DNA of 64,000 nt from Polaromonas sp. JS666. GTDB lineage: Bacteria; Pseudomonadota; Gammaproteobacteria; Burkholderiales; Burkholderiaceae_C. Both the position numbers and the translations under genes were made by a program. Positions 23,143 to 59,026 of the stretch are shown here, in pieces. The notes under the pieces are model-generated. The model saw only the letters and a program-made list of their open reading frames with translations. It was not told the DNA's origin and did not search any database. The number at the start of each line of letters is the position of its first letter. Positions within the stretch are counted from its first letter, which is position 1. Location of the stretch: contig NC_007948.1 of assembly GCF_000013865.1 (NCBI RefSeq), forward strand, positions 2,976,001-3,040,000, read 5' to 3'.

Positions 23143-23342
23143 ATGAACATCCCCCTGACACTCGCTCGCACGGCTCGCGCTTTGACCCTTGCCCTGCTAC
23201 CACTGGCCACTTCGGCAGCGCTGGCCGCCGATTACCCGACCCGTCCGCTCGAACTGGTCGTTGCGGCCTCGGCCGGCGGCGGCACTGACGTGATGGCGCG
23301 GGCCTTCGCCGATGCGGCGCGCAAGCACTTCCCGCAACCTAT
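23143..23342 (+). pseudogene. Bug receptor gene, 5' fragment (interrupted)
   Basis: ATG 23143 follows an ACGGAGAC ribosome site and encodes a signal peptide (ending near ALAADYPTRP) and the family motif VAASAGGGTDVMAR. Reading stops after the residues PQPIV at a TGA (23347-23349) created by an insertion. The 3' part is at 26689-27463. Joining 23342 to 26689 restores CCT-ATC-GTC-GTG-ATC-AAC (P-I-V-V-I-N) and a complete receptor of 324 residues. The original protein would be a periplasmic carboxylate-binding receptor of the sugar-acid island. As it stands the gene is broken. Confidence 0.93.
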
Positions 23343-23349
23343 CGTTTGA

Positions 23350-23382
23350 GTTCAGCGGCTGCCGTAGGCAGTCCGCTGGAAC
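23350..23382 (-). other. attC hairpin (L''/L' side), separated from its R'' box
   Basis: On the plus strand GTT-CAGCGG-CTGCC (23350-23363) pairs with GGCAG-CCGCTG-AAC (23367-23382) around the loop GTA. Two unpaired bases, T23372 and G23379, lie on the same side. A hairpin with an extrahelical T and G is what the recombined bottom strand of an attC site shows, and here the plus strand is the bottom strand because the cassette lies on the minus strand. The partner box GTTAGGC (R'' complement) is now at 24865-24871, pushed away by the IS1111-type element. The R' half is completed by the far cassette end at 26683-26689. Confidence 0.75.
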
Positions 23383-23392
23383 GGAATACGAA

Positions 23393-23404
23393 GGGACTTC
23401 CCAC
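23393..23404 (+). repeat. IS1111-type left subterminal inverted repeat
   Basis: GGGACTTCCCAC is the exact reverse complement of 24846-24857. It is preceded by ATACGAA (23386-23392), which has a 7-nt complement in the element's 3' non-coding region. Confidence 0.85.
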
Positions 23405-23477
23405 TTCCGGGTAACGGCATCGAGTGCCAAGATTGGTTTTGGAAAGTCAATCTGAAACCTTTGGAAGGAGAAGTCCC

Positions 23478-24545
23478 ATGAGCGAGATTACACGAGTTGG
23501 CGTTGATCTGGCAAAGCGCGTCATCCAGGTTCACGCCGTCAATGCCGCCGGCCAACGGGTTACCAGCCGTGCGCTGGCCCGCGACAAGTTCATGGCCTGG
23601 TGTGCGCAATTGCCCGCAGGCTGCCTGGTTGCCATGGAAGCCAGCTCCAGCGCCCACCACTGGGCTCGCCGGCTGGTTGCATTGGGGCTGGATGCGCGCA
23701 TCATCGCCGCCCACCTGGTGGCGCCCTACCGGCTGCAGGGCAAGTCTGGCAAGAACGACGCCAATGACGCCGCCGCCATCTGCGAAGCCGCCTCGCGCCC
23801 GCAAATGCATTTCGTGCCCGTCAAGAGCGTGGAGCAGCAAAGCATGCTGTGCATCCATCGCCTGCGCGAGGGCTTCAAGGCCGAGCGCACTGCCTGCGTC
23901 AACCGGATTCGCGGTCTGCTGGCCGAGTTCGGTCTGGTGTTCGCGCAAAAGCCCGCTGTCTTGCGTCAAGCTTTGCCCGACGTGATCGAAGATGCCTGCA
24001 ACGAACTGGGCACCCTGGCACGCCTGGCGCTGCAACGCGCCTGGGCGCAGTGGCAGGAACTCGATGCCCATCTGGCCTGGTGCGACGAGCGCATCGCCGC
24101 CCACCTCAAAGTCAATGAGCAGGTACGCCAGGCGGAACAGCTCATGGGTGTAGGGCCTGTCACAGCCTCTGCGGTGGTGGCCACGGTGGGCGACTTCAAA
24201 CAGTTTCGCAACGGCGCGCAGTTCGGCGCCTGGCTGGGGTTGACGCCACGGCAAAACTCCAGCGGTGGCAAAAACAATCTCGGTGCCATCACCAAGCGCG
24301 GCGACATGTACTTGCGCATGCTGCTGATTCAAGGGGCCAAGTCGGCGGTGATGACGGCGCACCGGCGGGATGACCCGATTTCAAAATGGTTGCACCAACT
24401 GCGCGAGAAGTCAGGCTGGCAAAAGGCGGCTGTGGCCCTGGCCAACAAGAATGCACGCATTCTGTGGGCGGTGTTCGTGCGGGGCAAACCATTTGATGCG
24501 CGCCATGTGAGTGTGAAGCCAGGGATGGCTGCCGCAGCTGTGTAA
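23478..24545 (+). CDS. IS110/IS1111-family transposase
   Basis: This 355-residue transposase has the two IS110 domains. The N-terminal RuvC-like DEDD domain contains VGVDLAKRVIQVH (first Asp), VAMEASSSAHHWAR (Glu) and KNDANDAAAICEA (two Asp). The C-terminal transposase-20 domain contains LMGVGPVTASAVVATVGD, GAWLGLTPRQNSSGGK and the putative serine region ITKRGDMYLRMLLIQGAKSA. The enzyme makes and inserts a circular form guided by a non-coding RNA from the same element. The ATG at 23478 has a strong GGAAGGAG ribosome site. The gene is intact, so the element may still be active. Confidence 0.95.
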   Translation: MSEITRVGVDLAKRVIQVHAVNAAGQRVTSRALARDKFMAWCAQLPAGCLVAMEASSSAHHWARRLVALGLDARIIAAHLVAPYRLQGKSGKNDANDAAAICEAASRPQMHFVPVKSVEQQSMLCIHRLREGFKAERTACVNRIRGLLAEFGLVFAQKPAVLRQALPDVIEDACNELGTLARLALQRAWAQWQELDAHLAWCDERIAAHLKVNEQVRQAEQLMGVGPVTASAVVATVGDFKQFRNGAQFGAWLGLTPRQNSSGGKNNLGAITKRGDMYLRMLLIQGAKSAVMTAHRRDDPISKWLHQLREKSGWQKAAVALANKNARILWAVFVRGKPFDARHVSVKPGMAAAAV

Positions 24546-24845
24546 CGCCGCCCCAGAAAAATTGTTCGTTTCCCTGCAAGACGTGAGTTCGAAGATGCAG
24601 TAGACAGGTCAGACCGGCAGCGGGCAAGCTCGACTAACCCTTTGTGGCATTCCATTGGCAATGACCACGGGATCGGAATGGAGCCCCGCTGAGCGGTTCG
24701 TATCTGGGTCCGCACTGAAAAACCAGTGCAACAAGGCCGACAGTAGATGTGCAGTCTGTTCCTCGTTTCACCGCCGCTTCACTTCACGCCAGTGCAGGAA
24801 AATACCGTCACCAAGGAAAAAATATCGCGACCGCTACTTGACTTC
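24546..24845 (+). ncRNA. Candidate guide (seeker/bridge) RNA region of the IS
   Basis: The 300 bp between the transposase stop and the right inverted repeat encode no plausible protein. In IS1111-group elements this downstream region yields a guide RNA that pairs with target and element ends. Two short matches support this here. CTAACCCTTT (24634-24643) is the exact complement of AAAGGGTTAG at the right junction (24861-24870). TTCGTAT (24697-24703) is the complement of ATACGAA beside the left repeat (23386-23392). Chance matches of 7-10 nt are possible, so the guide assignment is tentative; the absence of a gene is clear. Confidence 0.5.
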
Positions 24846-24857
24846 GTGGGAAGTCCC
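24846..24857 (-). repeat. IS1111-type right subterminal inverted repeat
   Basis: GTGGGAAGTCCC is a perfect reverse complement of 23393-23404. Seven bases separate it from the attC R'' box complement (GTTAGGC, 24865-24871). Confidence 0.85.
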
Positions 24858-24864
24858 AGTAAAG

Positions 24865-24871
24865 GGTTAGG
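24865..24871 (-). other. attC R'' box of the cassette
   Basis: On the minus strand this reads GCCTAAC, 12 bp after the stop codon of the DUF1330 cassette gene, and fits the RYYYAAC core-site consensus. Its 11-bp context (TGACGCCTAAC in antisense) is inverted at 26679-26689, the other cassette end, which supplies the matching R' half (GTTAGGC). Confidence 0.75.
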
Positions 24872-25230
24872 CGTCAGTTGGCACTAGTTCGGAAGGCCTT
24901 CAACCACATAGGAGCGCCAGTTCGACGACTTGTCGCGGCCAGCCTTGAGCGCCACGTAGGCTGGAGATGTGTCGAAGGCCAACGCGTCGTCGACGCTGGG
25001 GAACTTGATGAGGGTGATGGTCTTTGGGGGGTCCCCGGCGAGCGGAACGCCCTTGGTGGCACGCACGATGAACGTGCCGCTGGTTGGAAGAGCGCGAGCG
25101 GCATCGACATACGTTTTCCAACCGACCGGGTCAGTGACTTGAAACTCGACGACCAGGTAACCGGGATGATCTTGTCCCCAAAAAACGTACTCCATAGCTG
25201 ATGTGAAAATTCAGCAATTGGAGATGAGGA

Positions 25231-25536
25231 ATGAGCAAGAGGAAAGACGGACAGGCCAGGGGCAAATACACCCTGGAATTCAAGCTGGAGGCGGTGCGGC
25301 TGGTCAAGGGCGGGCAGGCCGTGCCGGTGACGGCCAGGGTGCTGGGCGTGCCGGTGCAGACGCTGGGCAACTGGGTGCGCCTGAGCGAGAAAGGCCAGCT
25401 CAAGGGCGCAGGCGACAAGCCTGTGTCGCCTGAGCAAATGGAGCTGGCGCGGCTGCGAGCGGAGAACGCGCGGCTGCGCATGGAGCGCGACATTTTAAAA
25501 AAGGCCACAGCGTACTTCGCCAAGGAATCGCTGTGA
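25231..25536 (+). CDS. IS3-family OrfA (transposase DNA-binding part)
   Basis: This 101-residue protein has an N-terminal helix-turn-helix of the Tnp-8 type (KYTLEFKLEAVRLVKGGQ, ARVLGVPVQTLGNWVRLSE) and a C-terminal leucine-rich coiled coil (MELARLRAENARLRMERDILKKA) for multimerisation. It overlaps OrfB by 4 bp in the -1 frame. A slippery A-AAA-AAG sequence at 25497-25503, with no stop in the -1 frame up to OrfB, would let ribosomes make the OrfAB fusion, the active transposase in this family. Confidence 0.95.
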   Translation: MSKRKDGQARGKYTLEFKLEAVRLVKGGQAVPVTARVLGVPVQTLGNWVRLSEKGQLKGAGDKPVSPEQMELARLRAENARLRMERDILKKATAYFAKESL

Positions 25537-26441
25537 AGTACGCCTGGATTGCGAAACACAAGACGAGCTGGCCGGTGACGGTGGCATGCGAGGCGCTCGG
25601 CGTGAGCGCCAGCGGCTACTTCGAGCACTGGCGGCGCAAGGATGCGAGCAAGCCCAGCCGGCCGGGAGCGAACAAGCGCATCAGCGACGAAGCCCTGCTG
25701 GTTCACATCAAGGCCATCCATGCCGAGGTCAAGCAGGAATATGGCTGGCCCAAGGTGTGGAAGGAACTGCTGGCCCGGGGCGTTCGGGTGGGCAAGGAGC
25801 GTGTGCGCAAGCTGATGCAGCGCCACGGCATCAAGGCCAGGGGCAAGAGGAAATTTGTCGTCACCACCGACAGCAAACACGACCTGCCCATTGCGCCGAA
25901 CCTGCTGCAGCGCAACTTCGCGCCTGAGGCGCCGAACCAAGTGTGGAGCAGCGACATCACTTACATCGCCACCGATGAGGGCTGGCTGTACTTGACAGCA
26001 GTGATCGACCTGTTCAGCCGCCAAGTGGTGGGCTGGAGCATGAGGGAACACATGCAGGCCAGCGTGGTGACGGATGCGTTGCGCATGGCGTGGTTTCGCC
26101 GCCGCCCTGCACCGGGCCTGATCTTTCATTCGGATCGGGGCAGCCAGTATTGCGGCCATGAGTTCCAGCAGGCCCTGCAGGGCTACGAGATGAAGTCCTC
26201 AATGAGCCGCAAGGGTGACTGCTGGGACAACGCGCCCACCGAGAGCCTGTGGGGGCGCCTGAAGGTCGGCAGGCTATATGGCAGAAGGTTTGCCACACGG
26301 CGCCAGGCCATGGACGAGGTGATGGACTGGATCAATTTCTACAACCACAAAAGATTGCACTCGACGCTGGGCTATGTCAGCCCGATGACGTTTGAGCAAC
26401 GCTGGATCGCGGCCCAGCAGCAAGAAAGAAAGTCCGCATAA
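25533..26441 (+). CDS. IS3-family OrfB (DDE integrase part)
   Basis: This 302-residue catalytic part begins at a GTG that overlaps the OrfA stop. It has the HTH-21 region (EVKQEYGWPKVWKELLARG, RVRKLMQRHGI) and an rve integrase core with the acidic triad in WSSDITYI, HSDRGSQY and DNAPTESLWGRLK. It ends with the typical FYNHKRLHSTLGYVSP. It is probably mostly expressed as a frameshift fusion with OrfA. The reading frame is full length and shows no damage. Confidence 0.96.
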   Translation: MKYAWIAKHKTSWPVTVACEALGVSASGYFEHWRRKDASKPSRPGANKRISDEALLVHIKAIHAEVKQEYGWPKVWKELLARGVRVGKERVRKLMQRHGIKARGKRKFVVTTDSKHDLPIAPNLLQRNFAPEAPNQVWSSDITYIATDEGWLYLTAVIDLFSRQVVGWSMREHMQASVVTDALRMAWFRRRPAPGLIFHSDRGSQYCGHEFQQALQGYEMKSSMSRKGDCWDNAPTESLWGRLKVGRLYGRRFATRRQAMDEVMDWINFYNHKRLHSTLGYVSPMTFEQRWIAAQQQERKSA

Positions 26442-26688
26442 TGGGCAGCCTATGGAGTGCGGACAACAGGGGCAAGGTCAGGAGGCTTGCTTTGAGCTCG
26501 ACTACTCTCGATGCCAACTGCACAGATGGCAACGCCGGCGAGCATGGCGCCAATGAGCTTGAGGTTAGCGTTCACGTGTTTTCCTTTGGTTCGTTGGAGG
26601 TAGGGAGTACCGCGAACGCCGACTGTTTCGACGTGCCGGTGCTTGGCAGTGTGCCTGAAGGCACGTACTTATGCTGTGTGACGCCTAA

Positions 26689-27463
26689 CGTCGTGATCAA
26701 CAAGCCCGGCGCCGCCAGCGCGATCGGCTTCGGCGATGTGGCCAATGCAAAACCTGACGGCTACAAGGTCGCCGTAGTCAGCGTCAACCTGGTGATCCTG
26801 CCGGCGCTGAACCTCATGAAGCTGACCAGCGATGATTTCATTCCGATCGCTCGCCTGAACTACGACCCCTCGGCGATCACGGTGCGGGCCGATGCTCCCT
26901 GGAAGACGATTGAGGAATTCATTGCCGACGCCAAAAAGCGGCCGGGCGCGATGCAGGTTGGCAACGGCGGTGTCGGCGACATCTGGCATGTGGCAGCCGC
27001 CGCTTTTGAGGACCGAACCGGCACCCAGTTCAATCATGTGCCGTTCCAGGGCGCGTCGCCGGCCATTCTCAGCCTGCTGGGTGGCCACGTGGACGCCGTC
27101 TCCGTCAGCCCCGGCGAGGTGATGTCGCACGTGCAGAGCGGCAAATTGCGCACGCTGGCGGTGATGTCCGAACAGCGGCTGGGCGGCGTGTTTGCCGATT
27201 CGCCGACGCTCAAGGAAAGGAAGATCGACCTCACCATCGGCGTGTGGCGTGGTCTTGCCGTGCCCAAAAATACGCCGCCAGACGTGGTGGATGTGTTGAA
27301 GAATGCAGCGCGCAGCACGGCGAGCGACGCGGCTTACAAAGAGACGCTGGTCAAGGCCAACCTGGGTGAGGCTTATCTCGATGCAGCGCCCTTCAAGGCA
27401 TCGATCGAGAGGGACCGCGAGTCACTGAAGAAGGTGCTGGCGAAGCTGGTCATCCAGAAGTAA
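26689..27463 (+). pseudogene. Bug receptor gene, 3' fragment
   Basis: This is the continuation of the receptor begun at 23143. From codon GTC 26690 it encodes the family segments VVINKPGAASAIGFG, AKPDGYKVAVVSVNLVILP, GGHVDAVSVSPGEVMSHVQSGKLRTLAVMSE and the C-terminus. The first base (C26689) completes the ATC codon split by the cassette. The frame remains open upstream to 26441 through the antisense cassette leader and the IS end, but that N-terminus is meaningless and has no signal peptide, so any product from it would not be a working periplasmic receptor. Confidence 0.92.
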
Positions 27464-58723: not shown

Positions 58724-58849
58724 CCCCTCGTCCAGCCCCCTGCCTTGGCTGGGTGGCTTGGGCTTGTAGAGCGCATCCTCGACGCCGGGCTCCATCCCGG
58801 CGTTCTTTTGCCCTCGCCCGCCGCACCAACCGCTCGTCAGTTACACTAG

Positions 58850-58974
58850 GGAGGTGCGCGACTGGCGATAGGTATCATGGTCTTGCCGGCCATTGATGCT
58901 GACGTGGGGACACCACTGGGAAGCGCACCGCTCAAAGCCGTTTGGCCACAGCGTTCAGCCGTTCGCCTGGGCAG
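58850..58974 (+). promoter_or_regulatory. ZMP/ZTP (pfl) riboswitch controlling glyA
   Basis: The 125-nt leader carries the conserved pieces of the pfl motif in order: GCGACTGGCG (58858-58867), a variable hairpin, CACCACTGGGAAGCG (58911-58925), and after a spacer CGCCTGGGCA (58964-58973). pfl riboswitches sense ZMP/ZTP, the signal of folate shortage, and turn on one-carbon genes. glyA is a known member of that regulon. Downstream, GGCAGCCCTT (58970-58979) can pair with AAGGACTGCC (59017-59026), which contains the AAGGA ribosome site. This suggests ligand binding frees the site by engaging GGGCA. Confidence 0.88.
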
Positions 58975-59026
58975 CCCTTGCTTCCTTGCTACCCAAGGAC
59001 AAGGATCAAAGTCTTGAAGGACTGCC

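Follow-up and report, generated by a model that had tools for sequence, protein, structure and literature searches.

A gene cassette at a probable integron-integrase secondary site in a Polaromonas receptor gene, split by two insertion sequences

Introduction

Gene cassettes found away from an integron, and insertion sequences lodged in their attC sites, have described counterparts. Insertion of cassettes at attG sites is said to be the subject of Loot et al. (2024, Nat Microbiol), a 1999 report by Segal is reportedly tied to pRAY, and the insertion sequences of the IS1111-attC group were reportedly treated by Tetu and Holmes in 2008 and by Post and Hall in 2009. Here we analyze a 64,000-nucleotide stretch of Polaromonas sp. 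JS666 (the window hereafter; positions 2976001-3040000 of contig C1 in genome G000, which has 5.9 Mb in three contigs of 5,200,264, 360,405 and 338,007 bp), in which an insert at 23343-26688 interrupts a Bug/TctC receptor gene. We conclude, at a probability of roughly 90%, that this insert is an integron cassette put off-target by an integron integrase and later disabled by two insertion sequences.

Cassettes at attG, as far as the available portion of that work goes, likewise lie in the genome away from attI and attC; they come from experiments in E. coli, whereas the present case is natural and has an empty site in relatives. In the parts of the cited literature available to us, class 1 integron cassettes provide documented cases of natural secondary-site insertion (PMC1382264), and off-target integrase activity is known from laboratory selection (PMC10127599). 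The class 1 cases share with our locus a single cassette outside an integron and a precise insertion (PMC1382264). They differ in that our target is a chromosomal gene, the cassette carries a DUF1330 gene, and its attC is split by an insertion sequence. Members of the IS1111-attC group (ISKpn4, ISPst6; PMC11187229) resemble the element in this attC in their subterminal repeats, downstream non-coding region and insertion at one attC end. This likeness is one of description, and copies 70-74% identical to the window element in other species sit at other targets. CALIN and SALIN elements (attC clusters or a single attC without an integrase; PMC12444791, PMC12690207) likewise hold attC cassettes without an adjoining integron integrase gene (intI); unlike in those, an attC model sees only part of our site because the attC is interrupted. 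The literature naming Polaromonas consisted, in the part covered, of works on Cupriavidus metallidurans and a wastewater plant; most subscription journals fell outside that part, so we do not claim that the case is unreported.

A precise insertion in a receptor gene

Host sequence ends at 23342 and restarts at 26689, with no target duplication, and joining the two flanks yields a receptor frame that runs from start to stop (...KHFPQPI-VVINKPG...) with 0 stops or frameshifts. The crossover position is known to within 3 bases because both sides have only ACG in common. An original prediction, made from the sequence alone, had held that excision of the insert restores the receptor frame without duplication and had proposed a comparison with intact relatives. 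The coordinates proved right, and the empty site was found as an uninterrupted receptor gene at three loci (L020 in G003, L021 in G077 and L022 in G074), all of which align across the junction. The first of these, from a related species, aligns with the joined flanks over 1723 columns at 83% and keeps an aldehyde dehydrogenase gene upstream of the receptor, as in the window. The 3' part of the broken gene is 89% identical to its G003 counterpart over 257 amino acids, and the open frame 26441-27463 matches Pfam TctC at 1.9e-49.

Receptor and cassette features, in window coordinates:

23143-23342, plus strand: 5' part of the Bug/TctC receptor gene (66 codons plus 2 bases), from the joined frame and the empty site in L020
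26689-27463, plus strand: Bug/TctC receptor gene, 3' part (PF03401)
23343-26688, minus strand: whole insert, one gene cassette with two insertion sequences
26683-26689, minus strand: GTTAGGC box, cassette start, with crossover at G^TTAGGC; the G may be of host or cassette
26576-26682, minus strand: cassette leader, about 0.1 kb, from the box to the GTG start at 26575
26481-26575, minus strand: DUF1330 gene, 5' part, with GTG start and one copy of a GGA duplication; matches the N terminus of homologues
24884-25166, minus strand: DUF1330 gene, 3' part and stop; the open frame 24884-25195 matches PF07045 at 1.9e-19
24866-24872, minus strand: attC R'' box, GCCTAAC
23344-23382, minus strand: attC spacer and hairpin, the latter of L''/L' arms with a bulged base; the model matches 23387-23344
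23337-23343, minus strand: junction with the host, G^ATAGGT being the host half of the proposed secondary site

Relaxed selection on the broken receptor was considered and rejected: against G003, nonsynonymous divergence (dN) is 0.088 and synonymous divergence (dS) 0.66, a ratio of ~0.13, and the ratios against G077 and G074 are lower still, but with dS near saturation. The receptor has accumulated no stop or frameshift, and we take the insertion to be fairly recent, which is not a dated estimate.

Cassette anatomy and attC likeness

Read on the minus strand, the insert presents TTAGGC (26688-26683), a leader, the DUF1330 gene, GCCTAAC, an IS1111-type element, a hairpin, CTCAAACG and then host ATAGGT. 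This is the organization of an integron cassette, with a single gene, a G^TTRRRY start and the gene pointing to its own attC; by arithmetic, the cassette minus its insertion sequences is ~0.55 kb. Such an architecture on this strand had been predicted, and it is borne out by the boxes as read and by the fold and model results for the hairpin. The proposed one-gene cassette with an attC also holds, but the prediction had missed that an IS3-type element splits the gene and that the IS1111-type element lies inside the attC.

When the IS3-type element and one GGA copy are skipped, the DUF1330 gene reads as a 124-aa protein resembling its homologues (105 in the protein collection), with an N terminus that by eye looks like a signal peptide. 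At E <= 1e-15 this protein is matched in 2 of 399 genomes of the same bacterial family, namely this genome and one relative at 43%. No relatives of the gene were found in the genome contigs, searched twice, or the viral contigs, searched once. The prediction had named as contrary evidence the same DUF1330 gene at the same place in another type of element; among the 399 genomes, this was not seen.

To score the attC, we used a model derived from 20 stretches adjoining integrases over the family cut-off, from the 168 of the 399 same-family genomes that have one; 91 script-found candidates were reduced to 47 by thinning and 32 were used, with the window left out. The model matches 23387-23344 on the minus strand with a score of 40.8 bits and a genome-wide E of 1.8e-6, both 7-base boxes lying outside the match. 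Background was measured solely on 34 other loci, which total 123 kb and had been retrieved for different purposes; no score there exceeded 9.1 bits. The E-values of the model are rough. As DNA, the hairpin at 23382-23344 folds with z = -5.6, and 0 of 200 shuffles were equally stable. The R'' box is complementary to the GTTAGGC box at every position. The site thus has the parts of an attC, a bulged hairpin as judged by model and fold, and R''/R' boxes as judged by reading. Its nearest neighbor among 109 attC-like sequences is the L154 attC, which lies beside the intI of another genome in the genus and agrees at 37 of 40 bases in the core; some longer attC-like sequences with high raw identity were disregarded as gap-rich with negative scores. 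Scoring of a rebuilt attC had been suggested; in the altered form applied here, to the split sequence, the hairpin part stands far above background. At gathering thresholds, Rfam gave no attC match in the window, L097 or L100.

The target site

The target reads GATAGGT on the minus strand, one base off GTTRRRY and in agreement with GNTRRRY, as expected from the prediction that the host site follows the secondary-site pattern. In the available portion of PMC10127599, the minimal integrase motif is GNT, and at secondary sites GAT is cut between its first two bases. On both strands outside the insert, 522 of 121,308 positions (0.43%) carry GNTRRRY. The event has the marks of attG-type insertion: it is precise and free of duplication, crosses over at G^NT and has an empty site in relatives. 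The hybrid box left by the insertion pairs with R'' at 6 of 7 positions, one of them a wobble, and the site may therefore have stayed active until the IS1111-type element came.

Two insertion sequences split the cassette

The element in the cassette gene, which we take to be of the IS3 family from its two-frame transposase, is flanked by a GGA duplication (25164-25166 and 26481-26483) and splits the DUF1330 gene. The IS1111-type element sits between the R'' box and the hairpin, splitting the attC. It combines a DEDD transposase with subterminal inverted repeats, as is characteristic of the IS1111 family, and has a non-coding region of ~300 bp 3' of the transposase.

Features of the two insertion sequences:

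25167-26480, plus strand: IS3-type insertion sequence, 1314 bp, ends TGAYCTTGYCCC; transposase frames 25231-25536 and 25533-26441
23386-24860, plus strand: IS1111-type element that interrupts the attC; ends placed with the 7/3 end rule (PMC11187229, available portion), the right one uncertain by about 3 bp
23393-23404 and 24846-24857: IS1111-type subterminal repeats
23478-24545, plus strand: DEDD transposase (PF01548 and PF02371); the mechanical open frame starts at 23424
24634-24643, plus strand: putative right guide of a seekRNA, CTAACCCTTT, complementary to the right flank
24671-24679, plus strand: putative left guide, GATCGGAAT, 8/9 like left flank GAACGGA plus AT, by eye

The putative right guide, CTAACCCTTT, complements bases 1-10 of the right flank, a fit equaled by 2 of 300 and 1 of 300 shuffles in two runs. 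A second copy of the element, L010/L132 (C1:1255527-1257034, 89% identical), lies in another attC just after GCCTAAC, and its right guide fits its own target with 0 of 300 shuffles as good in both runs. At the position aligned with these right guides, L165 carries CTTGCCCCT and L095 carries TAGCAGGC, each fitting its own target (4/300 and 9/300 shuffles, respectively), and L094 has TAACAGGC, which fits its target by eye only; the script found no right-guide match there (5 bases) because the end of that insertion sequence is repeated. The right guide therefore matches the target by script in four of five copies and by eye in the fifth, L094. For the left guides, a scripted reverse-complement test against the left flanks was not significant. 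By eye, a left guide on the direct strand is present in L094, L095 and L165 and reaches 8/9 in the window, with a poor fit in L010. The non-coding region of the element thus holds a guide-like segment that varies from relative to relative in step with the target it fits, and the element was probably steered by a guide RNA.

In the window as in L010, the element directly follows an R'' box, and the two attCs concerned are different. Of two IS1111 remnants, L013 follows GTCCAAC and L014 is without such a box. By eye, the copies in L094, L095 and L165 have no R'' box with hairpin; attC targeting would therefore be a property of the window-type guide and not of all relatives. A near match to the insertion sequence was not found in the phage collection. 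Matches to it in G005, a genome of the same genus, have the coordinates seen on two Polaromonas naphthalenivorans CJ2 plasmids.

Integrases and attC sites elsewhere in the genome and genus

Neither an intI over the TIGR02249 family cut-off nor, by that measure, an integron platform was found in the genome (attI was not searched). An N-terminal remnant of intI is present at C1:5119233-5119517 on the minus strand (L123:3234-3518; NF011946, TIGR02249), about 2.1 Mb from the insert by contig numbering, with 89% identity to the G053 intI over 71 aa. It faces away from a four-attC cluster, from which it is separated by an IS91-type element with a tyrosine (Y-) recombinase gene. As candidates for a living integrase we rejected two TIGR02249-matching Y-recombinases beside attC clusters, which score 185.9 and 167.4 bits, below the cut-off of 265; the one in L123 is upstream of an IS91-family transposase gene and the one in L124 is beside a similar frame.

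Applied to 13 stretches picked for attC or insertion-sequence matches, the attC model gave 28 matches in 12 of the 13, 23 of them at >=20 bits; one of the 28 is the other strand of the same site, and those in L134 are doubtful. Clusters of at least two attC matches without intI occur in this genome. The count is a lower bound because 150 of 7924 candidates were scored and the fetched stretches hold more sites. The genome-wide search for intI and attC recommended in the original prediction thus returned further attC matches; an intI over the cut-off was not among its results, but a remnant was. Its description of a cassette outside a platform as rare fared less evenly: the lack of any intI beyond the remnant agrees with it, but attC matches away from intI are common in this genome and genus.

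At L132 and L127, comparison with five relatives found no clean empty site. L128 measures 1591 bp between its flanks against 243 bp in G003 and 216-387 bp in three other relatives, with junctions that are not clean. This locus (C1:4378.4-4380.0 kb) contains two cassette-like genes, a single attC match, and an R'' box accompanied by a remnant of IS1111. Relative to G003 it has about 1.35 kb more, with a carboxylase-like gene on one side and what is likely a regulator of the AraC type on the other, both named by eye. CGTTGAGG forms the end of six attC matches, and the sequences that come after it start alike, with (C/G)TGTA... (L123:8289, L125:4564, L126:3228, L126:4299, L127:3563 and L132:5736); an IS1182-like transposase frame comes next in L123 (scanned) and L125 (by eye). 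These sites possibly mark another element targeting attC ends. A different sequence, GTTGAACGACTGCT..., follows three attC matches, in L124 (C1:1631568), L129 (C2:179944) and L130 (C2:79650).

Across the genus, 13 of 87 genomes have an intI over the cut-off, four of these being partial matches. The attC survey was confined to genomes >=95% complete, with stricter filters and 128 candidates scored per genome, and found matches at E <= 0.001 in 35 of 41. All 10 genomes with intI carry such matches, as do 25 of the 31 without it (this genome included); intI may be missed in some because many are drafts.

Apart from the insert, the window contains a ZMP/ZTP riboswitch (58848-58979, 58.1 bits).

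Discussion

We propose that an integron integrase recombined the attC of the cassette with GATAGGT, a site of GNT type that occurs by chance on the minus strand within the Bug receptor gene. The DUF1330 gene would later have been split by an IS3-type element, and the attC by an IS1111-type element that a guide RNA matching the end of the attC probably directed there; we presume that the two arrived in this order. The outcome would be a cassette that is probably immobile and a broken receptor.

Several observations weigh against this account. The match to G^NT alone is weak, with a chance of about 1-2% given the 3-base ambiguity. The attC score covers the split sequence as it stands, that is, the hairpin part alone and not the rebuilt site. 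Under the 7/3 end rule, the rebuilt spacer between R'' and hairpin is 8 bases, whereas the L087 and L154 attCs have 5; with a margin of about 3 bp on the right boundary of the IS1111-type element, the original spacer had 5-8 bases. The genome now has no intI over the cut-off, so the responsible enzyme must have been lost or have come from outside. Moreover, in the available portion of PMC1382264, secondary-site insertion seems to leave a non-functional site, and the cassette may therefore have been immobile before the IS1111-type element arrived.

Among other explanations, an origin as the remnant of a larger cassette array (CALIN), reduced to one cassette by deletion or excision, is the least improbable, yet we consider it unlikely. 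The same genome does hold clusters of at least two attCs without intI, but removing one cassette from end to end restores the receptor frame to the base, and loss of the neighbors would have to end exactly at those ends, as expected of integrase-type excision alone. In favor of compound transposition, in which the IS1111-type and IS3-type elements brought the segment as passenger DNA, about 2.8 of the 3.3 kb consists of insertion sequences. However, the insert is not bounded by either element; the IS1111-type one is within the attC, and the IS3-type one is flanked by a GGA duplication that is internal to the DUF1330 gene, which makes this origin very improbable.

We give still less credence to movement of the cassette by another tyrosine recombinase, for instance of the IS91-type elements of the genome: the two genes below the TIGR02249 cut-off do stand beside attC clusters, but they belong to or adjoin transposase frames, and nothing here ties them to attC recombination. 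It is equally hard to credit that the hairpin and boxes resemble an attC by chance and that the insert is some other element, against a score of 40.8 bits where the 34 other loci gave at most 9.1 and a 37/40 match to an array attC. Off-target insertion by an integron integrase is thus the reading that we retain.

For the genus as a whole we offer a more speculative picture, which we regard as possible but doubtful. Integrases may have repeatedly scattered single cassettes over chromosomes and plasmids at secondary sites and then been lost in many lineages, with IS1111 elements, guided by RNA to the conserved end of the attCs, then fixing the cassettes in place by splitting these sites. The prevalence of attC matches in genomes without intI (25 of 31) allows the frequency of such events to be asked, and deserves a survey. 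The agreement of guide and target among the copies of the insertion sequence provides an evolutionary check on the seekRNA model. The locus is natural and chromosomal, and the corresponding site is empty in relatives; it would indicate that a cassette need not be near an integron platform to inactivate a host gene.

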